A stretch of 53,699 nt of DNA from Marmoricola sp. (lineage in GTDB: Bacteria; Actinomycetota; Actinomycetes; Propionibacteriales; Nocardioidaceae). Within the stretch, counting starts at the first letter, position 1, and every line of letters begins with the position of its first letter. Both the position numbers and the translations under genes were made by a program. The notes below the pieces were generated by a model. That model did no database searches. It saw nothing but the letters and a program-made list of their open reading frames with translations, and was not told the origin of the DNA. Shown piece by piece: positions 18,189 through 46,825 of this stretch. The stretch covers positions 1 to 53,699 of the forward strand of contig JAOPYC010000111.1 of the NCBI GenBank assembly GCA_025964795.1. Direction: 5' to 3'.

Positions 18189-18200
18189 CCGGGCGCTTGA
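18189..18200. promoter_or_regulatory. TetR-type operator, divergent LLM / fadD units
   Basis: CCGGGCGCTTGA fits the island's core YCRRGC-GCYYGR, with one perfect half (GCGCTTGAT). It lies 90 bases from each of two divergent starts (18099 minus, 18286 plus), so one site could control both operons. Confidence 0.6.
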
Positions 18201-18285
18201 TTAATAGATGTTTCTCGTGCGAGAGTTGCCGCGGCCGGTGTTGCACAGGCCTCAGCGACGATGTGCGGAGAGAAGGAGTCGACCG

Positions 18286-19842
18286 GTGCAGGACACCACT
18301 CTCGGCAGCATGTTCGTGCGGTGCGGCCGCCGATACTCCGACCTCACCGCCGTGAGGTCGCACAACGGCGAGCGGACGTACGGCGAGGTGATCGACCGTG
18401 CCGCGCGGCTGTCTAACGTGCTGCGTGCCCACGGCCTGGAACCTGGTGACCGCGTCCTCATGGTGCTCGAGAACTGCGTCGAGGCCGTGGAGGTCATTGC
18501 CGGGATCACCCTCGCGGGCCTGGTCGTGGTGCCGGTCAACTCCGGCTTCAAGGCCTCCGAGCTCGACCACGTGCTGCGTGACTCGGGAGCCCGGGCCGTC
18601 GTGCACACCGACGGGGTAAGCACCAACCTGGCGCGCTCGTCGCAGGCGGCCGCTATTGACCTCGTCCTGCACATCGGGGGGTCCGGTCCGTCCGCCGGCA
18701 ACGTCCTGGACTACGACTCGGCCCTGGCCGCTGCCGACACGACGCTGACCGTGCACCGGGCGGCCCCCGACGACCTCGCCATCATCGGCTACACCAGCGG
18801 GACCACTGGGTTCCCGAAGGGCGCCATGGTGGATCAGGCGACCCTGGTGCTCTGTATCCGCTCCAGTGTCGGCGTGCTGCGCGTCCCGCACTACAGCCAC
18901 CTCGCATTCATCGGCGGCCTGGGGTACGCCGCCCCGTGGTGGACCATCATCCTCCCCCACCTCTACGTAGGCGGGATGGTGAACCTCATCCGCGACTACA
19001 CCGTCGACTCGTGGTTCGAGACCATGCGGCGTGACCGGACGACCTTCACCTACTGCCCGAGCCCGCTGATCGACCGTTTCGTCGACCAGGCCAAGAACTA
19101 CCCCGACGTCATCGAGCAGCTCGAGACGCTCAACCACAGCGCGTCCGCGGCCACCCCGGCCGAGATCCAGAAGATCATCGGGCTGGTGGGCGAGAAGTAC
19201 TTCCACGGCTGGGGGGCGACCGAGATCGTGGGTGCCCTCACCTGCCTGACCCGCAGCGACGTGGTCGGGCTCGGTGACGCGGAGGATCGGTGGGCAACCG
19301 TCGGACGGCCGGGGCCCACGACCGGACTGTTCGTCCTGGACGAGGACGGCAACGAGCTGCCCCGTGGTCGCGAGCACGTCGGCGAGTTCGCCGTCGAGCA
19401 GGACACGATCTTCTCCGGCTACTGGAACAACCCCGAGCAGACGGCTGCGGCCTTCAAGGACGGGCGCTACCTGACCGGCGACGTGGGCTGGATCGACCAC
19501 GCGGGCTACGCATACATCGTCGATCGCAAGCGGGACATGGTCGTCAGCGGCGGCGCGAACGTGTATCCGGCGGAGGTGGAGCGAGTGCTCCGCGAGCTCG
19601 ACGGCGTGGCTGAGATCGCCGTGTTCGGCATCCCCCACGAGAAGTGGGGAGAGACGGTCGCCGCTGCCGTCGTACGCCTCCCCGGGTCGACGCTGCGCGA
19701 GGAGGACGTCGTGGCCTTCGCCAAGGAACACCTGGCCAGCTTCAAGAAGCCGACGTCGGTGCGGTTCCTCGACGAGCTGCCGCGCAACCCGATGCAGAAG
19801 GTGCGCAAGGATGCCCTGCGCGAGATGTGGAGTGCCACATGA
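18286..19842 (+). CDS. Acyl-CoA synthetase (AMP-forming)
   Basis: A 518-residue ANL ligase. The P-loop is GYTSGTTGFPKGAMVDQ, adenylate site GWGATEIVGALT, hinge GRYLTGDVG with VDRKRDMVVSGGANVYPAEVE, and the Lys motif is NPMQKVRKDALRE. It should make the CoA ester that feeds the two acyl-CoA dehydrogenase subunits encoded next. GTG 18286 is chosen because AAGGAG at 18272-18277 precedes it; an in-frame ATG at 18208 has no ribosome site and gives a basic, unlike-family extension. It is first in a four-gene plus operon and overlaps the next gene by 4 bases. Confidence 0.88.
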   Translation: MQDTTLGSMFVRCGRRYSDLTAVRSHNGERTYGEVIDRAARLSNVLRAHGLEPGDRVLMVLENCVEAVEVIAGITLAGLVVVPVNSGFKASELDHVLRDSGARAVVHTDGVSTNLARSSQAAAIDLVLHIGGSGPSAGNVLDYDSALAAADTTLTVHRAAPDDLAIIGYTSGTTGFPKGAMVDQATLVLCIRSSVGVLRVPHYSHLAFIGGLGYAAPWWTIILPHLYVGGMVNLIRDYTVDSWFETMRRDRTTFTYCPSPLIDRFVDQAKNYPDVIEQLETLNHSASAATPAEIQKIIGLVGEKYFHGWGATEIVGALTCLTRSDVVGLGDAEDRWATVGRPGPTTGLFVLDEDGNELPRGREHVGEFAVEQDTIFSGYWNNPEQTAAAFKDGRYLTGDVGWIDHAGYAYIVDRKRDMVVSGGANVYPAEVERVLRELDGVAEIAVFGIPHEKWGETVAAAVVRLPGSTLREEDVVAFAKEHLASFKKPTSVRFLDELPRNPMQKVRKDALREMWSAT

Positions 19843-20993
19843 CGACCCTCTCCGCGAGCACGCCCGAGCTGCAGCTCGTCGAGCTGACCGATGACCTGCA
19901 GTCGATGGCAGAGACCGTCGCCGCGGTGGTGAGATCCCAGTCGCCCGCCGAGCGAGTCGCTGCTGTCGCCGACGGACCTGAGGAGTACGACGAGCCCCTG
20001 TGGCGCACCCTTGCAGTGGACCTCGGCGTCACGGGGGTCCTCGTGCCCGAGGAGTACGGCGGGCTGGGGATGGGCTGGGCCGAGGCACGCGTCGTGCTTG
20101 CCGAGCTCGGGCGCGGGCTGGCTTGTGTCCCCTTCCTCAGCAGCTGCGTCGTGGCCGTCTCGGTCGTGCTCGAGTCGAACGACGCGGCGGCCGCCGCCGC
20201 GATCCTGCCCGGCGTCGCCGAGGGCAGCTCCATCGTGGCGGTCGCCCTCGGCGACGATCGCCTTCTTCCGGCGCTGGGAAGCTCCGCCGTCGCCGCCCGT
20301 ACCGGAGCCGACGGTGGCTGGCAGCTCAGCGGGGTCCAGCCGTTCGTCGTGGACGGCATCGCCGCCGACCGCATCCTGCTCCTGGGACGGACGGACAACG
20401 GTGCCCACGGTTGGTTCCTCGTCGAGGCGGGTGCCGGTGGACTCACCCGGACGACCATGGAGGTCGTCGATCCCACCCGGCCCCAGGCCACGCTCACCCT
20501 TGACGGGGTGACCGCCCGGCTCATCGGTGACCTCGGCACGTGCGACGACCTGGTGGCGCCGGCGCTCGACGCCCTCGTCGTGGGAACCGGTTGCGAGATG
20601 GCCGAGGCCAGCCGTCACCTGCTCGACCTCACGATCGTCTATGCCACGACGCGCTACCAGTTCGGTCAGCCGATCGGGTCCTTCCAGGCGCTCCAGCATC
20701 GGCTGGCCGATCTCGCCATCATGATCGACACGTCGGTCTCGGCGGTGGAGTACGCCATCGCGTCCGCAGTCCACCACCCGGAGCGACTCCGAGAAGCCGC
20801 CTCCATCGCAGGGTTCGTCTGCACGGAGGCGTTCTACCAAGCCGCCCTGGAGACGATCCAGGTGCACGGGGGTATCGGATTCACCTGGGAGCACCAGGCC
20901 CACCGCTACTACCGACGCGCCCTCGCGTCACGCGCCCTGCTGGGCACGCCCGCCGTCCATCGAGAGCGGCTCATGCAGTCGCTGTCCCTCTGA
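19839..20993 (+). CDS. Acyl-CoA dehydrogenase, probable heteromer subunit
   Basis: A 384-residue acyl-CoA dehydrogenase-fold protein. The middle domain is short and divergent; the C-terminal part has TTRYQFGQPIGSFQALQHRLAD and QVHGGIGFTWEHQAHRYYRR, which fits the subunit that binds flavin in actinobacterial alpha2beta2 dehydrogenases such as FadE28-FadE29. With the following gene it probably forms one heterotetramer acting on a bulky acyl-CoA. The start overlaps the fadD stop (ATGA at 19839) and a 12-base gap precedes the partner gene. Whether it carries the catalytic base alone cannot be decided from sequence. Confidence 0.82.
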   Translation: MTTLSASTPELQLVELTDDLQSMAETVAAVVRSQSPAERVAAVADGPEEYDEPLWRTLAVDLGVTGVLVPEEYGGLGMGWAEARVVLAELGRGLACVPFLSSCVVAVSVVLESNDAAAAAAILPGVAEGSSIVAVALGDDRLLPALGSSAVAARTGADGGWQLSGVQPFVVDGIAADRILLLGRTDNGAHGWFLVEAGAGGLTRTTMEVVDPTRPQATLTLDGVTARLIGDLGTCDDLVAPALDALVVGTGCEMAEASRHLLDLTIVYATTRYQFGQPIGSFQALQHRLADLAIMIDTSVSAVEYAIASAVHHPERLREAASIAGFVCTEAFYQAALETIQVHGGIGFTWEHQAHRYYRRALASRALLGTPAVHRERLMQSLSL

Positions 20994-21005
20994 TCGGTCG
21001 TTGAC

Positions 21006-22241
21006 GTGGAGACACTCGAAGAGACAACGTGGCGGGCGCGGGAGTGGTTCGAGGCTCGCGTACCGCGGCGCGCGGACTCCGCGGCCAGGTCCGGGAAACC
21101 GTGGAGCGTGGCGATCTTCCCGGAGACGTCACACGTCGAGGAGCGTGTCCAGCTCGACGAGGCACGGGCGTGGCTCCAAGCCAAGTGGTCGGCACGCCTG
21201 GCCGGGCTCGACTGGCCCGAAGCCTTCGGTGGCCATGGCCTGGGCCGGGCGTACGCCGACGCCGTCTCGGCCGTCGAAGCGGACTACGACGTCCCCCACC
21301 ACGACCTCCTGCCGATCACCACCCGCCTGGTCGCGCCGATGCTCCGGCTGCTCGGCACCGAGGAGCAGAAAGCGCGATACGTCGGACCATTGGCCCGGTC
21401 GGAGATCGTCTGCGCCCAGCTGTTCTCCGAGCCGTCGGCCGGTTCCGACCTAGCCGGCATCTCCACGCGCGCCAGGCACTCGCCGGACGGCACCTGGTCC
21501 GTGACCGGGCAGAAGGTGTGGTCGAGCGGAGCCCAGTTCGCCGACTACGGCCTGCTCCTGACCCGCACGGACGTGGATGCGGTGAAGCACGCCGGGATCA
21601 CCGCGTTCCTATTGCCGCTCGACACCCCCGGGGTCGACATCCGGCCGCTGCGGCAGATGACGGGTGGGGCCTGTTTCAACGAGCTCTTCCTCGACGACGT
21701 CCCGGTCTCGGACGACTACCGGGTGGGTAACGTCGGGGACGGCTGGAAGGTCGCCACGACCATGCTCGGCTTCGAGCGCGACGCCTCGGGGGACGACACC
21801 ACGCTCGGGGGATCCTGGATCCAGGTGTTGAGCCTCGCCGCGGCCATGTCCAAGACGAGCGACCCGGTCGTGCGGCCGTTGCTGGCCGACGTCTATGCCC
21901 GTCACCTGCTGGCGAAGGTGAACGTCGCCCGCGACCTGAGCGATCGGAGCCGAGGACTCCCCCGCGGCCCCGAGGGCTCGATGCGCAAGCTGCAGTGGGT
22001 CGAGGGCATGGTGCAGATCAGCGAGGCGGTCTCTCAGATCCTCGGCCCCCGCCTGGTGGCTGACACCGGGGATCCGGAGACCTTCGGCTGGAACAGCCAC
22101 GTCCTCGGGGCCCTTGGCTACCGGATCGCCGGCGGCTCCAACGAGATCCAGCGCACGATCATCGCGGAGCGAGTCCTTGGGCTCCCACCCGGACCGCGCG
22201 TCGATCGCGGTATCCCGTTCCGCGACATCCCCACCTCATGA
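21006..22241 (+). CDS. Acyl-CoA dehydrogenase, partner subunit
   Basis: A 411-residue acyl-CoA dehydrogenase. LDWPEAFGGHGLGRAYADAV, QLFSEPSAGSDLAGISTRA, WSVTGQKVWSSGAQFADYG and GYRIAGGSNEIQRTIIAERVLGLP are the standard substrate and flavin segments. The last lacks the usual catalytic Glu in QIHGGxGYxxE context, as in one subunit of heteromeric FadE pairs. The GTG start at 21006 lacks a clear ribosome site, so coupling to the preceding gene is likely. The SDR downstream overlaps it by 4 bases. Heteromeric dehydrogenases of this kind are known from steroid side-chain and ring degradation. Confidence 0.82.
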   Translation: METLEETTWRAREWFEARVPRRADSAARSGKPWSVAIFPETSHVEERVQLDEARAWLQAKWSARLAGLDWPEAFGGHGLGRAYADAVSAVEADYDVPHHDLLPITTRLVAPMLRLLGTEEQKARYVGPLARSEIVCAQLFSEPSAGSDLAGISTRARHSPDGTWSVTGQKVWSSGAQFADYGLLLTRTDVDAVKHAGITAFLLPLDTPGVDIRPLRQMTGGACFNELFLDDVPVSDDYRVGNVGDGWKVATTMLGFERDASGDDTTLGGSWIQVLSLAAAMSKTSDPVVRPLLADVYARHLLAKVNVARDLSDRSRGLPRGPEGSMRKLQWVEGMVQISEAVSQILGPRLVADTGDPETFGWNSHVLGALGYRIAGGSNEIQRTIIAERVLGLPPGPRVDRGIPFRDIPTS

Positions 22242-23002
22242 CGGCGCGACACACCGGTCGCGTCGTCCTCATCACCGGCGCCGCCCACGGGATCGGTGCC
22301 GCTACGGCCGCAGCCGTGGTGCGCGAGGGCGGCAGCGTGGTCCTGGGAGACCTCGACGTCCCGGCCGCGCAGACCCGTGCCGGGGAGCTGGGCGAGCGAG
22401 CACTGGCGCTCCCCCTCGACGTTGCCGTCGCAGCGTCCTGGGACGCCTGCGTGGCAGCCGCCCTGAACCGGTTCGGGCGCATCGACGGGCTGGTCAACAA
22501 CGCCGGGATCGCCACCGGCCACAACCTCGTCGAGACCGATGCCGACGAGATGGTGCGGGTGCTCACGGTCAATACGATCGGCCCGTTCCTCGGCATCAAG
22601 GCGGTGCTCGGAACCATGCGCGCCGGCGGGCACGGCTCGATCGTCAACATCTCGTCCTGCGCCGGGCTCGGAGGCCTGCGCAGCAACGTCGCCTACTCCA
22701 CGAGCAAGTACGCGATCCGCGGGCTCACCCAGACGCTGGTGCACGAGCTCGGTGGCTACGGGATCCGCGTCAACAGCGTGTTCCCCGGCTACGTGGACAC
22801 CCCGCTCAGCCGACCGGACTGGGTCGAGCAGTCGGAGGCCGGCCAGCAACCCGCGAACGTCGCCCTCGGCCGCACCGGGCATCCTCGCGAGCTCGCCGAG
22901 GTGATCTCGTTCCTGCTCTCCGAAGAGGCCTCATACTGCACCGGCTCGGAGTTCGTTGCCGACGGGGGCCTGATGTCAGTCGTGCCCCCGCGCGACCTCT
23001 GA
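22238..23002 (+). CDS. SDR-family dehydrogenase
   Basis: A 254-residue classical short-chain dehydrogenase: NAD(P) motif TGAAHGIG, structural NNAG, catalytic Ser in IVNISSCAG and YSTSK. GDLD after the second strand suggests NAD preference. It closes the four-gene plus operon and most likely oxidises or reduces a hydroxyl or keto group on the acyl-CoA made by the upstream enzymes, resembling 3-alpha/20-beta-hydroxysteroid-type SDRs. Start overlap ATGA at 22238. Confidence 0.85.
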   Translation: MTARHTGRVVLITGAAHGIGAATAAAVVREGGSVVLGDLDVPAAQTRAGELGERALALPLDVAVAASWDACVAAALNRFGRIDGLVNNAGIATGHNLVETDADEMVRVLTVNTIGPFLGIKAVLGTMRAGGHGSIVNISSCAGLGGLRSNVAYSTSKYAIRGLTQTLVHELGGYGIRVNSVFPGYVDTPLSRPDWVEQSEAGQQPANVALGRTGHPRELAEVISFLLSEEASYCTGSEFVADGGLMSVVPPRDL

Positions 23003-23047: not shown

Positions 23048-23641
23048 TCAGGATCGCACGGTGAACAGGGTGTAGCTGTGGTCCTGCGCGTCCGGACGTC
23101 CGAAGACAGTGCGGGCCACGGCCTCCTCGGGGATCGAGTGCCCACCCCAGACACCCTTGGGCCTGTCGTGGTCCGGGCCCACCCAGGGGGTCCGCACCGG
23201 CTCGGAGTGGATCTCGCCGTCATAGACCACGGTGCGCTTGAGGATGCGGAACACCCCGTCCCGGCGCTCCCACCGGTCCAGGTAGCGGCCCTGGCTGACG
23301 GTGCGCCAAGCCACTCCCTCCGGGTCGCGCAGCCACTGGGTCGAGTGGAAGTAGACCTCGCTGACTGCGCTGTCCGCGTCCACCTCGATGTAGTGCTGGC
23401 CCAGCAGATGCGTGGTGCTGACCCACTCGACCGGGAACCCCGTCCCGTCCGTGCGCACCTTGGCCGCGAGGCCCCAACCGGACGAGTCGTTGCCGAAGCC
23501 GTGGTCGTCGATCGAGTCCTCGTGGTAGACCGACCTGACCAGCTCCTCGTCGCGGCGGTCGATGCCGCGCGCATAGCGGGCCATGGCGTCCATGATCTGC
23601 TGCTTCGCGACCAGCACGTCGAGCACGTTGCTGTCGTTCAT
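23048..23641 (-). CDS. SnoaL/NTF2-like protein
   Basis: A 197-residue NTF2-fold protein. Typical SnoaL_4 features are AKQQIMDAMARYARGIDRRDEE, then VYHEDSIDDHG and TTHLLGQHYIEVD, and RYLDRWERRDGVFRILKR. Relatives act as small cyclases, isomerases or hydratases, or as small dioxygenase subunit-like proteins; here it may isomerise or hydrate a cyclic intermediate. ATG 23641 has AGGAG upstream. It lies 78 bases downstream of the sugar-type binding protein gene, so it is probably in the transporter operon. Confidence 0.75.
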   Translation of the reverse strand: MNDSNVLDVLVAKQQIMDAMARYARGIDRRDEELVRSVYHEDSIDDHGFGNDSSGWGLAAKVRTDGTGFPVEWVSTTHLLGQHYIEVDADSAVSEVYFHSTQWLRDPEGVAWRTVSQGRYLDRWERRDGVFRILKRTVVYDGEIHSEPVRTPWVGPDHDRPKGVWGGHSIPEEAVARTVFGRPDAQDHSYTLFTVRS

Positions 23642-23719
23642 GTTGACTCCTCGTGTTGCGCCAGTGGGGTCCGCCGTCACAGGCGGACCCCACCAGCAGT
23701 CAGTTGCGTGGATCAGCGA

Positions 23720-24895
23720 TCAGGAGACGCCCCACAGCTTCTTGTATCCAGCCAGCCAGTCGGTCGAGCCGTCGAAGAACTTCCCCTTGGCCGGAAGGTT
23801 GTGCTTGGCGTCGATGAGCGTCGGACCGATGCCCTCCGGCACCTGCTTCTCACCGGCGAAGTAGCGGTTCAGGTTGTCCATGGCACCGAAGGACAGCTGC
23901 CGGAAGCTCTGCGCGTTGGTGAGCGCCACCTTCTCCCCGTCCCGCACGGACTGGAGCAGCTCCGCCTGGTTGCCGGCACCACCGACCAGCCAGAGGTCGA
24001 GACCGCTGTCCTTGATGGCCTGCTTGCCGCCGGAGCCGATCATGAGTGAGTCGAACGGGATGAAGACGCCGTTGGCGTTGGGGTTCTTGGCCAGTGCCAC
24101 GGTGAAAGCCTGGATCCAGGGGCCGTTCGGGGCGGTGTCAGCATCTGCCCACCTGACCTCCTTCAGGATCTCGCACTTGGCACAGGTCGCCATCTCGTCG
24201 CGGAAGCCCTTGTTCATGTACTCGTAGAAGCCGCCCTTCCCGAGGTTCGCGATGACATTGGCCTTGCCGTCGTTGGCACCGATGAGGTATGCCGCGGCGT
24301 TCTTGCCGATGGCCTCGTAGTAGTCCTGCACCGTCTCGGCGTCCTTGTGGTACTGCATCTTGACCGGGATCAGCGAGGGCTGCGACGGGTCGATCTCCGA
24401 GCAGTCCAGGGACTGCAGGCCGAACACCGGCACGCCCTGGTCCTTGGCCTCTTGGAGCGGCTGCTGGATGACCGAGCAGTCCATGCCCTGGATCACCAGG
24501 GCGTCGGGCTTGGCGGCGAGCGCCGTACGCACGGCGGCCGCGTATCCCCCGCCCTGGTTGACCTTGCCGTCGGCCACGTGGAAGTCCCAGCCCAGCAGCT
24601 TGGCCGCCTCGCCGCCGGCGTCCGACAAGGTCTTGCAGTCGGGGACGGCGTTGCCGCAACCCATCCACCACACCGACTTGTTCTTGGCCGGCGCGGGGCC
24701 GGTCGTGGGAACCTCACCGACGAAGGAGGTGGCGATCTTGTCCGCCCAGTCGCCGCCGACGTCTGCCGGCGCCTTGGCCGAGCTCGACCCTGAGGCCGAG
24801 CTCGAGTCGTTGCCGCATGCGGCCGCCAGAGGAAGGAACAGCACGAGCGCTGCCCCCATCCCCAGCAGGCGTTTGAGACTAACCTGAACACTCAT
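23720..24895 (-). CDS. Ribose-type ABC transporter substrate-binding lipoprotein
   Basis: A 391-residue periplasmic-binding-protein type 1 fold with a lipoprotein signal (LVLFLPLAAACGND, lipobox LAAAC). The mature part has two Rossmann-like lobes, with NKSVWWMGCGNAVPDC and PDALVIQGMDCSVIQQPL in the first lobe. It has several Cys residues (CGNAVPDCK, MDCSV, LDCSE, CAKCE), more than typical sugar binders. The context, inside an acyl-CoA catabolic regulon, suggests the ligand is the island's substrate rather than ribose. A 144-base gap with an inverted repeat separates it from the permease gene upstream. Confidence 0.85.
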   Translation of the reverse strand: MSVQVSLKRLLGMGAALVLFLPLAAACGNDSSSASGSSSAKAPADVGGDWADKIATSFVGEVPTTGPAPAKNKSVWWMGCGNAVPDCKTLSDAGGEAAKLLGWDFHVADGKVNQGGGYAAAVRTALAAKPDALVIQGMDCSVIQQPLQEAKDQGVPVFGLQSLDCSEIDPSQPSLIPVKMQYHKDAETVQDYYEAIGKNAAAYLIGANDGKANVIANLGKGGFYEYMNKGFRDEMATCAKCEILKEVRWADADTAPNGPWIQAFTVALAKNPNANGVFIPFDSLMIGSGGKQAIKDSGLDLWLVGGAGNQAELLQSVRDGEKVALTNAQSFRQLSFGAMDNLNRYFAGEKQVPEGIGPTLIDAKHNLPAKGKFFDGSTDWLAGYKKLWGVS

Positions 24896-25002
24896 CGTTG
24901 CTCCTTGTGGTGTGGAATCTGCGTTGGTCGAACCGTTGGTGATGCGGGGTTCGGACCGCTGCTGAGCGTTGGCCCGAGGCTGGCCTGCAGTGAGTCCGTA
25001 GG

Positions 25003-25027
25003 ACGACCCGCGCTCGCGGGCCGTCGT
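25003..25027 (-). repeat. Inverted repeat before the binding-protein gene
   Basis: ACGACCCGCG and CGCGGGCCGTCGT form an imperfect stem around CT, between the permease stop and the binding-protein start. Such hairpins often stabilise or partially terminate the transporter message so the binding protein is made in excess; that role is inferred. Confidence 0.35.
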
Positions 25028-25039
25028 TGGTGTGGCGGG

Positions 25040-26152
25040 CTATGCGTGACTCGGCGTGGCTTTCGCCGCTGCCTCTCCGGGACCACTCGTGGGCTCGGGT
25101 GCGGGCGGGACGTCGTCGGTATCCATCAGCAGCCGCTTCGCCTTGCGTTCCCGCTGTCGCCCCATGAGCGTCGAGACCGCCACGGCCAGGACGAGTGCGA
25201 GCCCGTTGAACGCGTTCTGGACCCAGGCCTCGGCACCCAGGAAGGTGAAGCCGTTGATGGCCACCGCCAGGGTGAAGATGCCGATGATGGTTCCCCAGAC
25301 GTTGTAGCGACCCGGGCGGATCGTGGTGGCACCCAGGAACACCGCGGCCAGCGCGGGAAACAGGTAGTTGGTCGCGACCGTCGGGTCTGCTCCGCCCTGT
25401 CGCGAGGTCAGGAGCGCTCCGGCGATCGAGGCCACGAGGGCAGATCCTAGGAAACTCAGCGCCACCAGTCGGTCCACGGAGATACCGACGAGTCGTGCCG
25501 CATTCTCGTTGGAGCCGATCGCCTCGAGCTGCCGACCGTTGGGGGTGTGCATCAGGGCGTACCAGACGATCGCGGCGACGACGATCAGGAGGTAGAAGGG
25601 TCGGGGGATCCCGAGCCACGTGAGCGAGCCCCAGTTGGCGAACCCACGCGGAACTCCGAAGATGCTGGTGCCCTTCGTGTACCACTGCAGAACCCCGCTC
25701 AGCAGAGTGAAGGTACCCAGCGTCGCGATGAAGCCGTTGAGGCGCAGACCGGCGACGAGGAAGGCGTTCAGGGCGCCGGCGGCCAGCCCGACTCCCACGC
25801 CCACCAGGATGGCCAGGGGCGTGGACAGGCCGTGGTCGACCATCGCCGAGGCGATGGCGACGTTCGCCAATCCGGCGATCGCGGCGACCGAGAGGTCGAA
25901 GTAGCCCGACACGAGTGGGATCACCATCGCGACGGCCACGAGGCCGGTGACCGACTGGTTGCCCAGGATGTTGATGAGGTTGGGTCGCGCAGCGAACAGG
26001 TCCTGGGTCTGTGGGTGCAACATGAAGAAGGCGATGAGGATGACCAGGAAGATGGGCAGTCCGGCGACCTCGATCACCTCGCCTACGGACTTGCGGGTCC
26101 GGGGCGTGGCCGAGGCGTTCTCGCTTGTGGTGTCCGACACGGCGCCGGTCAT
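25040..26152 (-). CDS. Ribose-type ABC transporter permease
   Basis: A 370-residue RbsC-like inner-membrane protein with about 9-10 hydrophobic segments, starting LPIFLVILIAFFMLHPQ. VSGYFDLSVAAIAGLANV, LNGFIATLGTFTLLSGV and GSNENAARLVGISV are family landmarks, the last being the cytoplasmic EAA-like loop. The C-terminal tail after residue 335 is polar and Pro/Ala-rich. It overlaps the upstream ATPase gene by 4 bases. It should form a homodimeric channel with the RbsA-like ATPase. Confidence 0.88.
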   Translation of the reverse strand: MTGAVSDTTSENASATPRTRKSVGEVIEVAGLPIFLVILIAFFMLHPQTQDLFAARPNLINILGNQSVTGLVAVAMVIPLVSGYFDLSVAAIAGLANVAIASAMVDHGLSTPLAILVGVGVGLAAGALNAFLVAGLRLNGFIATLGTFTLLSGVLQWYTKGTSIFGVPRGFANWGSLTWLGIPRPFYLLIVVAAIVWYALMHTPNGRQLEAIGSNENAARLVGISVDRLVALSFLGSALVASIAGALLTSRQGGADPTVATNYLFPALAAVFLGATTIRPGRYNVWGTIIGIFTLAVAINGFTFLGAEAWVQNAFNGLALVLAVAVSTLMGRQRERKAKRLLMDTDDVPPAPEPTSGPGEAAAKATPSHA

Positions 26153-27771: not shown

Positions 27772-27872
27772 TGCCTGCACCTCCCTGGTGTGCGAGGAGC
27801 AGTCGGTGGGCGGTCTGTAAGGGCCCCTGCGCCTTGCGATTGAGGAGATAGTGACATGCGCCACGTTGCTAA

Positions 27873-27884
27873 TCAAGCGCTTGA
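27873..27884. promoter_or_regulatory. TetR-type operator, transporter operon
   Basis: TCAAGCGCTTGA, a perfect palindrome extended to 14 bp as ATCAAGCGCTTGAT (27872-27885). It fits the KstR2 consensus AnCAAGnnCTTGnT as I recall it. It lies 102 bases upstream of the ATPase start and is followed by TAGAAAC, as at the 35833 site. Confidence 0.8.
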
Positions 27885-27919
27885 TAGAAACTTCTGAAGT
27901 GGTGTCGCGAGATCAGTGA

Positions 27920-28675: not shown

Positions 28676-28699
28676 GCCAGCCTCTCCCAGTGGTGTCTA

Positions 28700-28711
28700 T
28701 CAAGCGCTTGA
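28700..28711. promoter_or_regulatory. TetR-type operator, divergent hydratase / SDR
   Basis: TCAAGCGCTTGA perfect palindrome in the 124-base gap between the divergent starts at 28675 (minus) and 28800 (plus). It could repress both genes at once. Confidence 0.8.
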
Positions 28712-28799
28712 CAGTCATTCCTCGCCGAGCATACCTTCAGCTGATCGCACACGCCCCCTCCACCACAGGCGGGGCCATCGAGGCGAGGAGGCCGGCGGC

Positions 28800-36340: not shown

Positions 36341-36380
36341 CACAGCTCCTCGTTGCTGGCTCGGTGGAAACCCGGCACGG

Positions 36381-38353: not shown

Positions 38354-38425
38354 AGGTGAGTCGCTCCAGTCGATGTCGGTCCGGTGCCGTCGATGCGGGA
38401 TCGCACCGGGCGTTCGAGAGTCGGG

Positions 38426-39682: not shown

Positions 39683-39745
39683 CGCGTCCTCCCCTGTCTC
39701 ACCCTCACTGACTCCGGCGAGATTAGGCCTGTCCCGATCTATCTG

Positions 39746-39757
39746 TCAAGCGCTTGA
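39746..39757. promoter_or_regulatory. TetR-type operator, P450 operon and broken thioesterase
   Basis: TCAAGCGCTTGA perfect palindrome 64 bases from the P450 start on one side and about 140 bases from the decayed thioesterase on the other. Confidence 0.8.
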
Positions 39758-39896
39758 TCGACACTTGACGCCGCCACAGTTCCCCGTGAGCTCGAGGAGG
39801 ACGTACGCCGGGCCGTCGACTACTGCCCCCGGCTCGCGATCAGCGTCCACGAATGTCCCCCGCCCCAGGGGCGCCGCGCCCGCCACCGAGCCGGCC

Positions 39897-40392: not shown

Positions 40393-40899
40393 TCAGAGCA
40401 GTGTGGCGTGCGACCCGAACGTGCGGTTGTGATAGGTCAGCGGCGCCAGACCCTCAGTGGCCTGGGCGTTGACCACGTCCCCCACCAGGATCAGGTGGTC
40501 GCCCGCCGGCACGAGCTGCCGAATGTCCAGGGCGACCCAGGCGTGGGTCCCCGACACCCGCGGAGCCCGCGAGTCGAGAACCCAGTCGACGTGCTCGAAC
40601 TTGTTCTCGCTCTTGCCCGCGAAGGTCAGGGCCAGGGCGTGCTGCCCGTTGGCCAGGATGTTGACCCCGACGCGCGACCGGACGCCGAGGCGAGCCAGCA
40701 GCCGGGAACCGCGGTCCAGCGCGAACATGAGCATCGGGGGGCTCATCGACAGGGACGCGAAGGCACTGACCGTGGTCCCGTGGGGTTCGCCCTCCTGGAT
40801 GGTGGTCATCACCGCGACCGGAGCCGCCACGTTGCCCATGGCGTCACGGAACCGCCCCTCCACCACGCTGAACCACTCGGAGTCGCTCTCGACCGGCAT
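40393..40899 (-). CDS. Flavin reductase (HpaC/HsaB-like)
   Basis: A 168-residue split-barrel flavin reductase: FRDAMGNVAAPVAVMTT, GTTVSAFASLSMSPPMLMFALDRGSRLL, GVNILANGQHALALTFAG. It should supply FMNH2 or FADH2 to a group D monooxygenase. It lies 54 bases after the HsaA-like gene at 40954 and is the only such reductase in the window, so it may serve both HsaA-like paralogues. Confidence 0.87.
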   Translation of the reverse strand: MPVESDSEWFSVVEGRFRDAMGNVAAPVAVMTTIQEGEPHGTTVSAFASLSMSPPMLMFALDRGSRLLARLGVRSRVGVNILANGQHALALTFAGKSENKFEHVDWVLDSRAPRVSGTHAWVALDIRQLVPAGDHLILVGDVVNAQATEGLAPLTYHNRTFGSHATLL

Positions 40900-40953
40900 C
40901 CGGCTACCTCCTTCCGGCTCGGTAGGACCGGGTCGTCGTGTCGCCCGGGTGCC

Positions 40954-42162
40954 TCACAGCGGTCCGCCGGTGTGGAAGTCGGCGACACCGCGCGCCAGCT
41001 GCGCCATCACCGAGGGCGCCGCGTCGATGTAGTTGTGACGGTCCACCGCGATGTGCTGGTTCATGGCGTGCACGTCGCGGAAGTTGCGTCCGATCACGCC
41101 GTCGGAGCGCAGACCCGCCGAGCCCGACCAGTCGAAGGCGAAGTCGACGCAGCGTACGGCAACGTCATGGACGTAGCGAGCAGTCAGCTTGGTCCGGTCG
41201 GTGAGCTCTCGCGGGGCCGGCCGGTCGTTGTTCATCGTCCACGCATCCAGCTCGCGGAGGAGGTCGTGGAAGAGCAGGCGTGCCGCATCGAGCTCCGCGA
41301 CGTGCCGCGTGAGCTCATACTGGAAGTGTGGCTGGTCGCCCACGGGGGCGTAGGGCCCGTCGCGGCGCCGGCGCTGGGGCGCAAGCGCCGCGATCTCCTG
41401 CAGTGCGCGGCGGGAGACTCCGAGGGCGGGCGCCAGGTGGCCGAGTGGACCCAGGATCTCCACGCCGAGAGCCCAGAAGGAGGTCCCCCGGTAGACCTTG
41501 GACGGCCACGGGTTGACCTGGACGACGAGGTGCTCAGGAACGAACATCGGCCCCACCTCGTAGTCGATGCTGGCCGTCCCGGCGAGACCGCTGACGTCCC
41601 AGTTGCCCGTCTCGCGTACGTCGGCCCGCGGCACGATCACGGCGATCATCTCGGGCATCCCGTTGTCGGCGAAGACCAGGTCTCCGTCCTCGTGCACCAG
41701 ACCACCCGCGACGAAGTGGTCGCACATCATGGAGCCGGACGCGAACTGGTGCTTGCCGGTGAAGTGATAGCCGCCATCGACGCGTTCGGCATGGCCGCGC
41801 GGAGCGGGCATGCCCGAGATCACCGGTGGGCCGTCCGCGTAGAGCTCGGCAGCGCCGCCGTCGGGAAGCACAGAGCTGAACGAGGCCGCGTGGCTGCTCG
41901 TGGCCATCAGCGACCACCCTGCAGCCCCATCGCCGCGGGACACCTCTTCGATCACGTCGGCCCACTCGCGATAGCTGCACTGCTCGCCGCCCAACTCGTG
42001 GGCGACCCCCATGTTCATGAAGCCGGTCCCCAGCAGGGCGTTCACGGCGCGAGGGGTGAGCGCAGCGGCTGCCGCTCCCGCCGCCGCCTCGCCGTCGAGC
42101 AGCACGGCGACCTCGTGGGCGAGCTCGAGCCGCCGCTGGTGGTCGACCCGGGTGAGTGTCAT
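40954..42162 (-). CDS. HsaA-like flavin-dependent monooxygenase, second copy
   Basis: A 402-residue paralogue of the protein at 34549, sharing ATSSHAASFSSVLPDGG, TGKHQFASGS, VNPWPSKVYRGTSFWALGVE and LGPLGHLAPALGVSRRALQE. It belongs to group D flavin monooxygenases, not true acyl-CoA dehydrogenases. ATG 42162 with GAGGAG upstream is preferred over an in-frame upstream start at 42249, which would swallow the operator. It heads the two-gene operon with the flavin reductase. Two copies suggest two successive hydroxylations or two isomeric substrates. Confidence 0.83.
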   Translation of the reverse strand: MTLTRVDHQRRLELAHEVAVLLDGEAAAGAAAAALTPRAVNALLGTGFMNMGVAHELGGEQCSYREWADVIEEVSRGDGAAGWSLMATSSHAASFSSVLPDGGAAELYADGPPVISGMPAPRGHAERVDGGYHFTGKHQFASGSMMCDHFVAGGLVHEDGDLVFADNGMPEMIAVIVPRADVRETGNWDVSGLAGTASIDYEVGPMFVPEHLVVQVNPWPSKVYRGTSFWALGVEILGPLGHLAPALGVSRRALQEIAALAPQRRRRDGPYAPVGDQPHFQYELTRHVAELDAARLLFHDLLRELDAWTMNNDRPAPRELTDRTKLTARYVHDVAVRCVDFAFDWSGSAGLRSDGVIGRNFRDVHAMNQHIAVDRHNYIDAAPSVMAQLARGVADFHTGGPL

Positions 42163-42245
42163 GGGATCTCCTCGGACAGCCCCGGGACGCACGGTCATGC
42201 GTCGTGCTGGCTGGTCGCTCAAAATATCCGGCTGCCTGGTCTCTG

Positions 42246-42257
42246 TCAAGCGCTCGA
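42246..42257. promoter_or_regulatory. TetR-type operator, monooxygenase/reductase operon
   Basis: TCAAGCGCTCGA flanked by CTG on the left and CAG on the right, 84 bases upstream of the start at 42162. Confidence 0.75.
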
Positions 42258-42271
42258 CAGATTCGACACAA

Positions 42272-43081
42272 TCACCCGGCAGTGGCGGGCGGCGCGACGT
42301 TCAGGCCGCCGTCCGCCGAAATCGTAGTGCCGGTGATGTAGTCCCCTGCCACGGAGGCCAGGAAGCCGACGAGCGCCGCCACCTCGTCCGCCGCCTCCGG
42401 TCGTTGCAGGGGCGCCGTACGGGCGAGCGCTGCGACGTCGACGCCGTACCGGGTCAGCGCCTCGGTGTGGACGAAGCCCGGCGCTACGGCGACGAGGCGG
42501 ACCCCTCGCGGGCCCCACTCGACGGCCAGCGTCCTGGTGAGCGACTCAACGGCGGCACGCGCGGCCGAGGAGTGCGCCATCCCGGGAATGCCACGTTGCG
42601 GAGATGTGACGATGTTGATGACCTTGCCGTAGCCCGCTGGCAGCATCGAGAGCTCCGCGACCCGGGTCGTGAGGTACCACGTGGCATCGAGGTTGAGCCG
42701 GGTCACGGCGCGGAAGCCGCGGTGGGAGACGGTCTCAGCGGGCGACATGAACTGCCCGCCGGCGTTGTTCACCAGGATGTCGATACGCCCGGCGCCGAAC
42801 AGGACGGACTCCAGGAGCACGTCGACCTGTTCGATCTCCCTGATGTCGCAGACCGAGGCGACGAGCGGGTGCTCGTACGCCGCGCGCGCGCCGATCGCGA
42901 CCGTCTCGTCCAGCGACTCCTGGGTGCGACCCACGACGTGCACGCGTGCTCCGAGCCGGGACATCAGCAGGGCACAGGCGCGACCGATCCCCCCACCGCC
43001 GCCGGTGACGAGCGCCGTGCGCCGCGCGAGCGCTCCGTCCGCGAGGACCGCGAGGGACTCGGGGCTGCGAGGTTCGGTCAT
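42272..43081 (-). CDS. PECR-like SDR lacking the YxxxK pair
   Basis: A 269-residue SDR with an intact NAD(P) site (TGGGGGIGRACALLMSRLGARV) and NNAGGQFMSPAE. Where classical SDRs have YxxxK it reads AHSSAARAAVESLTRTLA, as in peroxisomal trans-2-enoyl-CoA reductase and 2,4-dienoyl-CoA reductase relatives. It probably reduces a double bond of an enoyl- or dienoyl-CoA with NADPH. It overlaps the upstream SDR gene by 4 bases. Confidence 0.82.
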   Translation of the reverse strand: MTEPRSPESLAVLADGALARRTALVTGGGGGIGRACALLMSRLGARVHVVGRTQESLDETVAIGARAAYEHPLVASVCDIREIEQVDVLLESVLFGAGRIDILVNNAGGQFMSPAETVSHRGFRAVTRLNLDATWYLTTRVAELSMLPAGYGKVINIVTSPQRGIPGMAHSSAARAAVESLTRTLAVEWGPRGVRLVAVAPGFVHTEALTRYGVDVAALARTAPLQRPEAADEVAALVGFLASVAGDYITGTTISADGGLNVAPPATAG

Positions 43082-43866
43082 GACATCTCCAATCGTCCGT
43101 CGGCCCGGGCCGAGTCGAGGACGGCCACCAGCTCGTCGGTGCGGGCGAACAGCCGCTCGTAGCGAAGCGGGTCGCTCACCCAGATGTCTCCGAGCAGTCG
43201 CGCCACGGGGTCAGGGAAGATGTCCTTCTCCCCTCTCTCGACGCCGTCCAACGTGCCTCCGGCGACCAGTCGGGCCGACGACTTCGGCGCCTCGAGGCCC
43301 TTGAGCATGTCGGTGTCGACGCCACCGGGGTAGACGCCGCTCACGGTGACGCCCCGGAGCTCCAACGCCGGGCGGAGCGACTGCAACAACGAGTGCAGCG
43401 CTGCCTTGGAGGCCGAGTAGCCATCGAGACCGCTGGATCCGGCGAAGGACTGCAACGACAAAATGGTGACGATGCGGCCGCCCCCGTGGCGCTCGAGCAC
43501 GGGCGCGAAGGCCCGAATCACGTCGAAGGTGCCCAAGGTGTTCGTGGTCAGGTGGCGCGCGAGGTTCTCACGCTCCCCCGTCAGTCCCTCTCCGAACTCC
43601 AGGATGGCGGCATTGTTGATGAGCAGGGTCACGTCGGAGGCGCTCTGTGCAGCCCGGGTGATGCTCTCGGCGTCCAGCAGGTCGAGGTGCAGTGGAACCA
43701 CGCGAGCCGGATCGAGCGCGATCACCGGGGGTAGGGACTCCGGGTCGCGCGCGCCGGCGTACACCCTGGCCACCCCGCGCTCGAGGAGAGCCTCCACGAG
43801 CGCTCGCCCCACTCCCCGATTCGAGCCCGTGACGCATACGACCGAACCACGCACACTCAAGTCCAT
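43078..43866 (-). CDS. SDR-family dehydrogenase
   Basis: A 262-residue SDR: TGSNRGVGRALVEALLERG, NNAAI replacing NNAG, Ser in TILSLQSFAGSSG, and YSASK. The C-terminal 60 residues (EKDIFPDPVARLLGDIWVSDP) resemble the extended tail of SDRs acting on long or bulky substrates. It heads the two-gene operon, with a weak operator copy 12 bases upstream of the start. Confidence 0.83.
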   Translation of the reverse strand: MDLSVRGSVVCVTGSNRGVGRALVEALLERGVARVYAGARDPESLPPVIALDPARVVPLHLDLLDAESITRAAQSASDVTLLINNAAILEFGEGLTGERENLARHLTTNTLGTFDVIRAFAPVLERHGGGRIVTILSLQSFAGSSGLDGYSASKAALHSLLQSLRPALELRGVTVSGVYPGGVDTDMLKGLEAPKSSARLVAGGTLDGVERGEKDIFPDPVARLLGDIWVSDPLRYERLFARTDELVAVLDSARADGRLEMS

Positions 43867-43878
43867 GTTGGAAACCTA

Positions 43879-43890
43879 CCGGTCGCCCGA
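43879..43890. promoter_or_regulatory. Weak TetR-type operator copy
   Basis: CCGGTCGCCCGA; on the minus strand this reads TCGGGCGACCGG with GTAGGTTTCC after it, matching the flank at 35833-35854. One mismatch to YCRRGC-GCYYGR. It sits just upstream of the start at 43866. Confidence 0.5.
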
Positions 43891-43994
43891 CAGATAGTCG
43901 AGGTGCCCCTGGTGACGGGTCAGACACCGCTGAGGCGGACCCCTCGGCCCGCCCGCGCAGGACGAAGTGCAGTGTCCTCCACGCGCACGCTCCT

Positions 43995-44774
43995 TCAGTG
44001 CTTGGCGCGGAAGGCCGCAATGCGTCGCTGGGCCGTGTCGGTGGCCAGCGCCCGCGCGAACGTCTCCGCCTCGTCGACGGCGCTTGCGTCGCGACCGACC
44101 GTGAATCCGGACCTGACCAGGCGCTTGGTCTCCCTAGCCTGGACCGACCCGGCCAGGCGCCGGGCGAGCTCCTCGGTGCGGGCGAGCGCCGTGTCGTCCT
44201 CGACCACCTCCGTCACCAGGCCCCACTGGCATGCGGTCTCGGAGGCGAGGTCACGCCCCGACAGCAGGAACTGCAATGCGCGTCGCTCGCCGACGACTCG
44301 AGGCAGCAGAAAGGAGACCCCGACGTCCGGCGTCAGGCCCAGAGCGCCGTAGGCGGGCACGAAACGAGCAGAGCGGGCAGCCACGACCAGGTCGGCCACG
44401 AGCATCAGCGCCAGGCCCGCGCCGGCCACTGCGCCGTGGACCAGCACGACGACCGGCACGTCGAGGTCCTGGAGCCGGCGCAGCACCCCCTCGGTACGCA
44501 TGACCATGCCTCTCGATCGTTCCTCCGAGACGGCGGAGGTGTCGGCGCCGAGCTCCGACACGTCGCCGCCGACGCAGAAGTGCTTTCCAGCTCCACGCAC
44601 CAACACGCACCGCACCTCGCTGGAGCTCGTGTGCTCGAGGGCAGAATCCAGGGCGGTCACCAGGCTCGAGCTGAGGGCGTTTCCGGCTCGAGGGCGGTTG
44701 AGGGTGACTGCGAGGACCCCGTCACGCACCTCGACGGCGACCGGTTCGGCGCTCAGCACTGCCTCCGCCCTCAT
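43995..44774 (-). CDS. Enoyl-CoA hydratase/isomerase, PaaG-like
   Basis: A 259-residue crotonase. KHFCVGGDVSELG and VHGAVAGAGLALMLVADLVVAA form the oxyanion hole. The usual first Glu is absent; instead YGALGLTPDVGVSFLLPRVVG carries an Asp where PaaG-type isomerases have theirs. It may isomerise a double bond rather than hydrate. It overlaps the upstream SDR gene by 4 bases and is the second gene of the operon from 45508. Confidence 0.82.
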   Translation of the reverse strand: MRAEAVLSAEPVAVEVRDGVLAVTLNRPRAGNALSSSLVTALDSALEHTSSSEVRCVLVRGAGKHFCVGGDVSELGADTSAVSEERSRGMVMRTEGVLRRLQDLDVPVVVLVHGAVAGAGLALMLVADLVVAARSARFVPAYGALGLTPDVGVSFLLPRVVGERRALQFLLSGRDLASETACQWGLVTEVVEDDTALARTEELARRLAGSVQARETKRLVRSGFTVGRDASAVDEAETFARALATDTAQRRIAAFRAKH

Positions 44775-45508
44775 ATCGAGAGACCGCCGTCGACCGGTAG
44801 GACCACACCCGTGATGTAGGCAGCCTCGTCCGAGGCCAGGAACCCCACTGCTGCGCACATCTCGTCAGCTCTCCCGAACCGGGCCAGCGGAGCCATCAGC
44901 TCGATCTCCCGTCGACGCTCCTCCGGGATCGCCTCGACCATGCGTGTCGCGGCGTTCGGGCTGATGGCGTTGACCGTGACGCCGAAACGCGCGACCTCTT
45001 TCGCCACGGTCTTGGTGAAGCCGATGATCCCGGCCTTGGCGGTCGCATAGTTGGCCTGTCCGACGTTCCCGTGCAGCCCCGTGTACGACGTGACGTTCAC
45101 GATGCGTCCAGCCCCTTGAGCTCGCATGGAGGGAACGCAGGCACGCGTGAGCCGGAAGGTCCCGCCGGCATGGACGCCGAGGACGAGGTCCCAGTCGTCG
45201 TCGGTGATCTTCCAGACGACGTTGTCGCGCAGGATCCCCGCGTTGTTCACCAAGATGTCGACCCTCCCCGTTGCCTCGAGAGCGGCCGTGACAGCAGCGT
45301 CGGCGGTGGAGGCAGCCGCCACGTCGCCGACCACCGGGACGGCACCGCTGCTGCCGCACACCGCCGCCAGACCTGCTGCGTCAAGATCTACAGCGACGAC
45401 GGTCGCTCCCGCTGCGCGGAAGAAGCGCACGAGCTCTGCGCCGATGCCCTGGGCGGCACCGGAGACGATGACGGTGCGGTCGTGGAAGTCATAGGTCAAC
45501 GTGGGCAT
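44771..45508 (-). CDS. FabG-like SDR
   Basis: A 245-residue SDR: SGAAQGIGAELVRFFRAAG, NNAGILRDNVVWKIT, Ser in VNVTSYTGL, and YATAK. Close to beta-ketoacyl reductases and 3-hydroxyacyl-CoA dehydrogenases; VDLDAAG suggests NAD. It heads the two-gene operon, with an operator 46 bases upstream. Confidence 0.86.
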   Translation of the reverse strand: MPTLTYDFHDRTVIVSGAAQGIGAELVRFFRAAGATVVAVDLDAAGLAAVCGSSGAVPVVGDVAAASTADAAVTAALEATGRVDILVNNAGILRDNVVWKITDDDWDLVLGVHAGGTFRLTRACVPSMRAQGAGRIVNVTSYTGLHGNVGQANYATAKAGIIGFTKTVAKEVARFGVTVNAISPNAATRMVEAIPEERRREIELMAPLARFGRADEMCAAVGFLASDEAAYITGVVLPVDGGLSI

Positions 45509-45553
45509 GAAACCTCACAGCTCGACAGAGTGGGGGTCCAACCTAGCAATCTG

Positions 45554-45565
45554 TCGGGCGCCCGG
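45554..45565. promoter_or_regulatory. TetR-type operator variant
   Basis: TCGGGCGCCCGG, a near-palindrome that fits YCRRGC-GCYYGR, flanked by CTG and TCTACAG. It lies between the tetR stop (45621) and the SDR start (45508). Confidence 0.65.
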
Positions 45566-45620
45566 TCTACAGAACTTTCAACCTCACCCGGAGGGTCGCC
45601 GAGCGCGGGCAAGGCCGGCC

Positions 45621-46214
45621 TCAGGCCGACGCGCCCCGTAGGAACTGCTTCTCGATCTCGTCGATCATCCGCTGCTTGGTGACGCCCCGCTCGGACCGGT
45701 ACCAGAAGATGGTCCAGTTCATGAGGTTGAGCAGCAGCAGCGTGAGCATCGTGGCCTCGCTGTCGGTGCGTAGGATGCCCTCTTGCTGGCCCGCCGCGAT
45801 CTCGTTGCGCAGCATGGTCTCGTACTCCGCACGGGACTCGATGACCTCTTGACGTCGCTCCTCGGACAGGGCTCGCCACTGGAGCTCGGTGAGGACCGTC
45901 GAGTGTTGATGACTGCCCATGATGGTGGTCATGTGCGCCTCGATCATCGCCCGGATGCGGTTCTCGACACCCTCCGCTCCGGCAAGCGCATCGGCCACTG
46001 CCGTGGAGATCTCGTCCAGCGCCATCTTGGAGATCTCGTAGAGGAGGTCTTCCTTGCTGCTGAAGTAGTAGTAGAAGGTGCCGTTCGTGACCTCCATGGC
46101 GGCCGCGAGCTCGCGCGTCGTCGTCTCGGCGTACCCCTTCTCGGAGAAGAGCTTCGCTCCGAGCTCGCGTGCTCGCGCCTTGGCCGCCTCGTTGCGCTCG
46201 GTCTTGGAACTCAT
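45621..46214 (-). CDS. TetR-family regulator, candidate island repressor
   Basis: A 197-residue TetR. The DNA-binding domain spans about residues 10-60: AKLFSEKGYAETTTRELAAAMEV, then TNGTFYYYFSSKEDLLYEI. The ligand domain has aromatic LNLMNWTIFWYRSERG near the C-terminus, as in regulators that sense acyl-CoA esters (KstR2 and FadR-like actinobacterial types). ATG 46214 has AGGAG upstream. It is the only TetR in the window and lies amid the operator copies, so it is the best candidate to bind them and be released by a CoA-ester intermediate. A weak site upstream suggests self-control. Confidence 0.87.
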   Translation of the reverse strand: MSSKTERNEAAKARARELGAKLFSEKGYAETTTRELAAAMEVTNGTFYYYFSSKEDLLYEISKMALDEISTAVADALAGAEGVENRIRAMIEAHMTTIMGSHQHSTVLTELQWRALSEERRQEVIESRAEYETMLRNEIAAGQQEGILRTDSEATMLTLLLLNLMNWTIFWYRSERGVTKQRMIDEIEKQFLRGASA

Positions 46215-46290
46215 ACGTGACTCCTGTGGCTGAGATGCGGCGACGCGGGTGCGCCGTGCGAAGATCGAGCCCCAGATTTCGGGAGTCCGA

Positions 46291-46302
46291 CCGAGCGCAT
46301 GG
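46291..46302. promoter_or_regulatory. Weak operator copy upstream of tetR
   Basis: CCGAGCGCATGG followed by TAGAT; 11 of 12 positions fit YCRRGC-GCYYGR. It lies 77 bases upstream of the tetR start, and just before the stop of the downstream-facing gene at 46325. Confidence 0.4.
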
Positions 46303-46324
46303 TAGATGATCGGCCCGGATAGGC

Positions 46325-46783
46325 TCAACGAGCCGCGTCAGCAACCACGGCTCGATGCAACAGCATCAGGGGGATCTCTCGCTCCGTGGAGAGCTGGTAG
46401 TCCGCGTACGTCGGGTAGGCCACCACCGCCCGCTGCCACCACACGTCCCGCTCACGACCCTCGAGTCGGCGGGCGACGAAGTCGTCGCGCATGCTCCCGT
46501 CCTGGAGCATCAGATGCGGGTTCGCCACCAGGTTGTGGAACCACTCCGGGTTGCGAGGAGCGCCCGCCAGGGACGCAACGGCGGCATAGTCACCGTCATG
46601 TTCCACGCGCATCACTGGATTCTTGCGCAACAGGCCCGACTGCGCCCCGCGCGTGGTCAAGATGACGATGCGCCGCCCCTCGGGATCGGCGCCGCCGGAC
46701 TCGCCGTTCGAGCGTTCATAGCGTTCGACGTGGTCACGCACCCACGCGGTCGGGCTGGGCGCGTACGTCCCCTGAAGCGGCAT
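46325..46783 (-). CDS. Deazaflavin (F420)-dependent nitroreductase-family protein
   Basis: A 152-residue Ddn-family split-barrel protein: RRIVILTTRGAQSGLLRKNPVMRVEHDGDYAAVASLAGAP, then NPEWFHNLVANPHLMLQDG. These are the F420-binding landmarks of quinone-reductase-like proteins. With the LLM enzyme it suggests F420 chemistry in the pathway. It has its own operator 31 bases upstream and ends before tetR. Confidence 0.85.
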   Translation of the reverse strand: MPLQGTYAPSPTAWVRDHVERYERSNGESGGADPEGRRIVILTTRGAQSGLLRKNPVMRVEHDGDYAAVASLAGAPRNPEWFHNLVANPHLMLQDGSMRDDFVARRLEGRERDVWWQRAVVAYPTYADYQLSTEREIPLMLLHRAVVADAAR

Positions 46784-46813
46784 GGTTCAGTGTCTGGAGT
46801 CCCGGGTTGCCTG

Positions 46814-46825
46814 TCAAGCGCTCGA
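46814..46825. promoter_or_regulatory. TetR-type operator, F420-dependent gene
   Basis: TCAAGCGCTCGA flanked by CTG on the left, 31 bases upstream of the start at 46783. It is the rightmost copy and marks the edge of the regulon. Confidence 0.75.

Follow-up and report, generated by a model that had tools for sequence, protein, structure and literature searches.

The 53,699-nt stretch of DNA analysed here (hereafter the window; Marmoricola sp., contig JAOPYC010000111.1) contains a block of catabolic genes between 12421 and 46825 in which one palindromic element recurs in the gaps between transcription units, together with a gene encoding a TetR-family protein (45621-46214), the only regulator found inside the block. 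Gene functions were assigned from NCBIfam and Pfam and, since most NCBIfam matches fall below the curated cut-offs, are given as family-level names; operons were inferred from strand and spacing. In our parse the ten copies of the element give twelve unit-facing orientations, which point to the LLM-to-FadD operon, the operon for FadD, two acyl-CoA dehydrogenases (ACADs) and a short-chain dehydrogenase (SDR), the ABC transporter operon, the enoyl-CoA hydratase (ECH) gene, a single SDR gene, the operons headed by flavin monooxygenase FMO_a, by a P450 and by flavin monooxygenase FMO_b, two SDR-led units, the TetR gene and the F420-type reductase gene. Every parsed unit in 12421-46825 has one site upstream. 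A preliminary description of this DNA had recognised the island but sized it at 28 kb; because the site at 18189 also faces a leftward operon reaching 12421, the block served extends to about 34 kb.

Candidate operators, the proposed regulator and the units of the island
Feature	Coordinates	Strand	Evidence	Remarks
Operator between leftward LLM/ACAD/APH/ECH/FadD and rightward FadD/ACAD/ACAD/SDR operons	18185..18204		23.2 bits	Intergenic
Operator upstream of ABC transporter operon	27869..27888		28.0 bits	Orthologous operon in L044 has two upstream sites
Operator between divergent ECH (27920-28675) and SDR (about 28799-29732)	28696..28715		29.0 bits	TTGACA-18-TACCTT toward SDR
Operator upstream of FMO_a/MBL/SDR/VOC/SDR/SDR/AKR operon	35829..35848		29.0 bits	TTGACA-18-TAAAGT
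Operator upstream of P450/thiolase/SDR/MaoC operon	39742..39761		29.6 bits	TTGACA-18-TAATCT
Operator upstream of FMO_b/flavin reductase operon	42242..42261		29.6 bits	TTGACA-17-TATTTT
Weak operator upstream of two SDR genes	43875..43894		17.3 bits	Leave-one-out: beaten by one non-site
Weak operator upstream of SDR/ECH operon	45550..45569		17.4 bits	Leave-one-out: beaten by one non-site
Weak operator upstream of TetR gene	46287..46306		19.3 bits	Possible autoregulation
Operator upstream of F420H2-dependent reductase gene	46810..46829		23.5 bits	Gene-facing half TTGACA; -10 match weak
TetR-family regulator, 197 aa, proposed island repressor	45621..46214	-	PF00440 8.5e-16, PF17932 7.9e-21	
Operon: F420 LLM oxidoreductase, ACAD, APH-type kinase, ECH, acyl-CoA synthetase	12421..18099	-	NCBIfam, Pfam	
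Operon: acyl-CoA ligase, two adjacent ACADs, SDR	18286..23002	+	NCBIfam	
Operon: sugar-type ABC transporter (ATPase, permease, binding protein), SnoaL-like protein	23048..27780	-	Pfam, NCBIfam	
Enoyl-CoA hydratase	27920..28675	-	Pfam	
SDR	28799..29732	+	Pfam	Scan on longer frame 28440-29732
Operon: HsaA-like flavin monooxygenase FMO_a, MBL lactonase-like protein, three SDRs, VOC protein, aldo/keto reductase (AKR)	29766..35754	-		
Operon: P450, thiolase, SDR, MaoC-like hydratase	35885..39682	-		
HsaA-like flavin monooxygenase FMO_b, flavin reductase	40393..42198	-		
Two SDRs	42272..43866	-		
SDR, enoyl-CoA hydratase	43995..45508	-		
F420H2-dependent quinone reductase-like protein	46325..46783	-		

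All ten coordinates listed in the preliminary description (18189, 27873, 28700, 35833, 39746, 42246, 43879, 45554, 46291 and 46814, used here as site names) hold palindromes of the type it stated, and their alignment reveals a longer element, a dyad of about 20 bp, TCTRTCAAGCGCTYGAYAGA, in which an outer CTR...YAG extends the 12-bp core. The core pattern YCRRGCGCYYGR is exact at eight sites, and the two that had been called weak, 43879 and 46291, carry one mismatch each; two additional exact matches in the window, at 16895 and 44117, both lie within genes and look like chance occurrences. With up to one mismatch allowed, the core occurs 39 times in the window against 23.8 expected, a count reached by none of 100 shuffles. 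The right flank TAGAAAC, which the flanks of several sites were said to resemble, is found literally at two of the ten (27873 and 35833). A 20-bp matrix made from the ten sites and scored over the 53.7-kb window gives them 17.3-29.6 bits, above any other position (the best non-site, at 9236, reaches 15.6 bits), and in leave-one-out scoring eight sites still exceed all non-site positions, 43879 and 45554 each being beaten by one. By our gene calls all ten lie in intergenic gaps upstream of or between operons, as previously described, with intergenic DNA making up 7.1% of 12421-46825. This placement depends on the chosen start codons (if every frame were taken at its longest, sites 27873, 42246 and 46291 would be overlapped by the ABC ATPase, FMO_b and TetR genes, respectively, at their 5' ends), and a frame at 39765-40298, which looks like a decayed thioesterase gene, was treated as non-coding in the count. 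This frame runs rightward, divergent from the P450 gene; it matches a TesB thioesterase only partially, over about 45 residues, and has no Pfam match. The internal gap of about 145-180 bp before the binding-protein gene of the ABC operon contains no site.

The draft assembly of this genome comprises 4,322,372 bases in 204 contigs and is 92% complete. Within it, TCAAGCGCTYGA gives eight strand hits, which fall at five places and never outside the window (reversed-pattern control, 2 + 2 strand hits), and CTRYCRRGCGCYYGR gives 13 strand hits, of which ten fall in the window at seven distinct sites and three elsewhere (reversed control, 3 + 6). The signal is the clustering of the matches and not the modest genome totals. 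The core CAAGNNCTTG, of KstR2 type, is present at 20 places in the draft, four of them in the window. Contrary to a motif equally common inside genes or genome-wide, a possibility raised in the preliminary description, the sites are intergenic, TCAAGCGCTYGA is confined to the island and CTRYCRRGCGCYYGR is clustered there. The three outliers (contigs C147, C158 and C189) score 11.1-11.7 bits by the matrix; the 6, 8 and 20 kb around them contain no similar cluster, and the only island homologue nearby is a partial FadD match, so they were not counted as regulon members.

The protein encoded at 45621-46214 has the TetR_N helix-turn-helix and the all-helical ligand domain of the TetR family, its AlphaFold model is all-helical (mean pLDDT 93.6), and the next TetR in the same assembly shares 26% identity with it (5e-14). 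Foldseek ranks PfmR (28-30% identity), KstR2 (22%), AibR (20%) and DarR (25%) nearest to the model, with FadR further down; the top matches (3vpr, 4w97, 5k7h) have the fold of a CoA-thioester-responsive group (PfmR/AibR/FadR-like), and the structure entries for AibR and FadR contain isovaleryl-CoA and stearoyl-CoA, respectively.

Comparison with other genomes lends support to the previously proposed island-wide regulon under one operator and points to TetR 45621-46214 as its most likely regulator. For TetR homologues at 45 loci, some 330 bp spanning the estimated gene start were scored with the window matrix, each region against 100 shuffles, the smallest attainable p being 0.01. An upstream site at p≤0.01 is present in four of the six homologues that are 40-55% identical over most of the protein (L020, L015, L017 and L002), and in one of the remaining 39 (L009, with a palindrome of a different type); L006, L007 and L010, also among the 39, reach p 0.03-0.04. 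Many of these 39 loci are partial matches, several are near-identical and their starts were extrapolated, and the co-occurrence of the site with this TetR lineage may be taken as an indication, not a clean test. In the two closest homologues the helix-turn-helix stretch TTTRELAAAM.VTNGTFYYYF is nearly identical. Upstream of the TetR homologues L006, L009, L010 and L014, from related genomes, stands a palindrome of another kind, approximately CTAAGCNNTTGCTTAG, which may be a further conserved TetR operator.

The strongest evidence for the TetR model is the apparent conservation of operator and target in a second genome, the Pseudonocardiales metagenome-assembled genome (MAG) RYN_165 (G453). There, orthologues of the ECH (78%) and of the TetR (54%) flank a 22.1-bit site, with ACGATCAAGCGCTTGGTTAA located 74 bp before the estimated start of the TetR gene, on a contig of 3.2 kb where the island homologues found are the ECH, the TetR and a FadD only. 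The orthologous ABC operon of the same genome (L044; ATPase 74%, permease 76% and part of the binding protein 71% identical) has two upstream sites of 24.3 and 22.9 bits. More distant relatives of the ABC transporter, in G535 (57%) and Streptomyces chartreusis (55%), and of the flavin monooxygenase, in G463 (37%), lack a convincing site (best 9.5, 12.9 and 9.4 bits, respectively).

Several sites overlap promoter-like sequences. In four of the twelve orientations (28700 rightward, 35833, 39746 and 42246) the gene-facing half of the dyad contains TTGACA and is followed at 17-18 bp by TAnnnT (binomial P ~1e-4 against the intergenic background), and at 46814 the gene-facing TTGACA stands without a good -10, which brings TTGACA to five of twelve. 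The mean best -10 score is 5.17 at spacings of 16-19 bp versus 3.19 at other spacings, and the ABC operon orthologue in L044 has a like arrangement, TTGATT-17-CATAGT, read from the sequence. These -35 and -10 boxes are consensus matches, not mapped promoters; the simple reading that they suggest is occlusion of the -35 region.

We consider it probable, with some reserve, that the TetR-family protein encoded in the island itself has this palindrome as its operator and would repress all units until a pathway intermediate binds it. Without substrate, TetR dimers would occupy the dyad before each unit, on or beside the -35 region, and exclude RNA polymerase. Upon entry of the substrate an intermediate, most likely an acyl-CoA thioester, would bind TetR and release it, and uptake, activation, oxidation and beta-oxidation would be induced together, while the weak site before the TetR gene could provide mild autoregulation. 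An acyl-CoA is our best guess for the effector, by analogy and from the presence of two acyl-CoA ligases and several ACADs and ECHs in the putative regulon.

A number of observations weigh against this interpretation. The sites at 43879, 45554 and 46291 are weak by the matrix, and the last of these is TetR's own. The closest homologue (L019, 55%, a second one in the Pseudonocardiales MAG) lacks a site in the roughly 300 bp upstream of it; its specificity or targets may have diverged. At L016 (43%) the site, of 13.3 bits, is on the 3' side of the TetR gene; the sites at L015, L016, L017 and L002 (13-17 bits) are G+C-rich dyad variants without CAAGCGCTTG, and the recognition helix of the window's TetR is common only to L019 and L020 and differs in those four. 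In G453, a 16.3-bit match falls inside the binding-protein frame of L044, and a 21-bit match on contig C61 (L043) lies inside an open reading frame on a contig where no island homologue was found, which we took as chance. Neither the core YCRRGCGCYYGR (128 places, control 124) nor CTRYCRRGCGCYYGR with one mismatch (90 + 75 strand hits, control 94 + 96) is enriched in G453, counts so close to control that both patterns are too loose as genome-wide tests. Genomes G005, G098 and G110 have four matches to a stricter pattern away from their TetR genes. The -35/-10 test was framed after the sites had been seen and counts 18189 and 28700 in both directions. DarR, which binds c-di-AMP according to the part of PMC10636190 drawn on here, is a near fold neighbour of the model, so the predicted fold group is not exclusively CoA-sensing and the fold alone leaves the effector unsettled. 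Finally, we infer binding, repression, operon structure, effector class and substrate alike, and the incompleteness of the draft makes an unseen regulator possible.

Another regulator, such as a TetR missing from the draft or the MarR protein encoded at 48530-48997, is an unlikely alternative for what binds the sites, though the likeliest of those considered. Palindromes are bound by MarR proteins too, the gene at 48530-48997 is 1.7 kb outside the island and the assembly is incomplete, but the site accompanies the TetR homologue on the 3.2-kb G453 contig with its few island homologues, and sites occur near TetR homologues in four other genomes.

Somewhat less probable still is that the operators are bound by a genuine KstR2 encoded elsewhere, the island forming one branch of steroid C/D-ring catabolism. 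Within the island, an IpdE2-like ACAD is in keeping with this, though far below the model cut-off (174 vs 450 bits), as is the first ACAD of the 18286-23002 operon, whose sole PDB match at 1e-30 is Tcur3481, which we take to be a steroid ACAD. The parts of Kendall et al. (PMC3068626) used here describe the KstR2 motif as AnCAAGnnCTTGnT, with three sites per genome and >50% identity among orthologues, and include a tuberculosis KstR2 operator with the core CAAGCGCTTG of our sites. However, the flanks differ from those of KstR2 sites, the 14-bp motif AnCAAGnnCTTGnT fits exactly at one of ten sites (27873), the island TetR shares 22% identity with KstR2 (4w97) in the Foldseek alignment, versus >50% among KstR2 orthologues, and the motif tracks homologues of the island TetR. 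A KstR2 regulon includes the HIP pathway (ipdAB, fadD3, fadE30 and others), and the effector of KstR2 is HIP-CoA. No CoA-transferase (ipdAB-type) family appears among the matches listed for island proteins, although no search aimed directly at KstR2 or ipdAB was made in the remainder of the genome. KstR2 membership was rejected on the 22% identity and the fit at one site in ten, and the shared core indicates a likeness of operator design only. The earlier idea of an undescribed KstR2-like regulon holds for the operator design, for the motif quoted with it, which is in print, and for a local regulon, not for KstR2 in the strict sense, and the accompanying suggestion of a substrate different from that of the KstR2 regulon is likely.

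That the repeats are merely shared strong promoters is very improbable: five of the twelve orientations have TTGACA in their gene-facing half, but the opposite half is conserved too, as a dyad, which 43879, 45554 and 46291 retain without a gene-facing TTGACA, and TCAAGCGCTYGA is absent elsewhere in the draft. Under the TetR model the local regulon is real and of a known design, and operator and regulon are apparently undescribed; a literature search with the literal operator strings returned no match.

The regulon would join 33 genes besides TetR, by our parse, into one candidate pathway, and the operator-repressor pair offers a route to its substrate via derepression. To judge from the paired ACADs, the Tcur3481 match, two HsaA-like monooxygenases, the P450 and the many SDRs, this substrate may be a cyclic, oxygenated compound. 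The two flavin monooxygenases (34549-35754 and 40954-42198) are 64% identical, likely through duplication inside the island. An integrase core (rve_3) fragment lies at its left edge (11541-12218). Of 394 genomes of the class, our own included, two have a match to the ABC permease at E≤1e-110 and two have a match to FMO_b at 1e-60, and among 58 relatives, again counting our own, 11 have a TetR match at 1e-15 and none other exceeds 40% identity. The closest homologues of the island are in the Pseudonocardiales MAG and Rhodococcus. This rarity, with the integrase-core fragment, suggests that the island was acquired.

Among known systems, the KstR2 regulon of mycobacteria and rhodococci, as far as the consulted parts of PMC3068626 describe it, resembles the island in its TetR regulator, in a palindrome with a CAAGnnCTTG core in the gaps of one catabolic cluster and in its acyl-CoA genes. 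The island, in contrast, differs in the flanks of its sites and has ten of them where the KstR2 regulon has three per genome, a sugar-type ABC transporter, a P450 and two flavin monooxygenases, and no ipdAB-type match among those listed. PfmR (TTHB023) of Thermus thermophilus (3vpr) is the nearest solved structure by both sequence and fold and likewise has a palindromic operator, of 16 bp; its operator letters differ, however, and its sites map to promoters of fatty-acid genes, not to one island (PMC7022988). AibR and Bacillus FadR are fold neighbours with solved acyl-CoA complexes but are 17-21% identical and have other targets.

A close parallel in arrangement is on plasmid pLP1 of Rhodococcus qingshengii VT6, which carries the top plasmid match to each of the two flavin monooxygenases. 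Its island (about 24-58 kb) contains a related ABC transporter, flavin monooxygenase (46%), LLM protein, paired ACADs, thiolase, flavin reductase and TetR (29%), and one palindrome is repeated in its gaps; the enzyme set is different and the operator, ACCAANCGNTTGGT, has diverged. With up to one mismatch allowed, the 501,672-bp plasmid has nine occurrences of ACCAANCGNTTGGT, every one of them within a 29-kb block (26,018-54,860) and in a gap of the annotation, which is incomplete; the reversed control gives none. Recombinase/integrase genes are annotated on both sides of this sister island (pLP1 18000-60000, L073). The pLP1 TetR presumably reads ACCAANCGNTTGGT. Between these two related islands the operator specificity of TetR seems to have diverged. 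Tentatively, and against the balance of probability, both might be examples of a class of catabolic islands that are mobile and self-contained and serve an undescribed, possibly polycyclic or terpenoid-like substrate, each with a private TetR-operator code; if so, such codes would keep incoming islands from cross-regulating each other or the KstR2-type regulons of the host.

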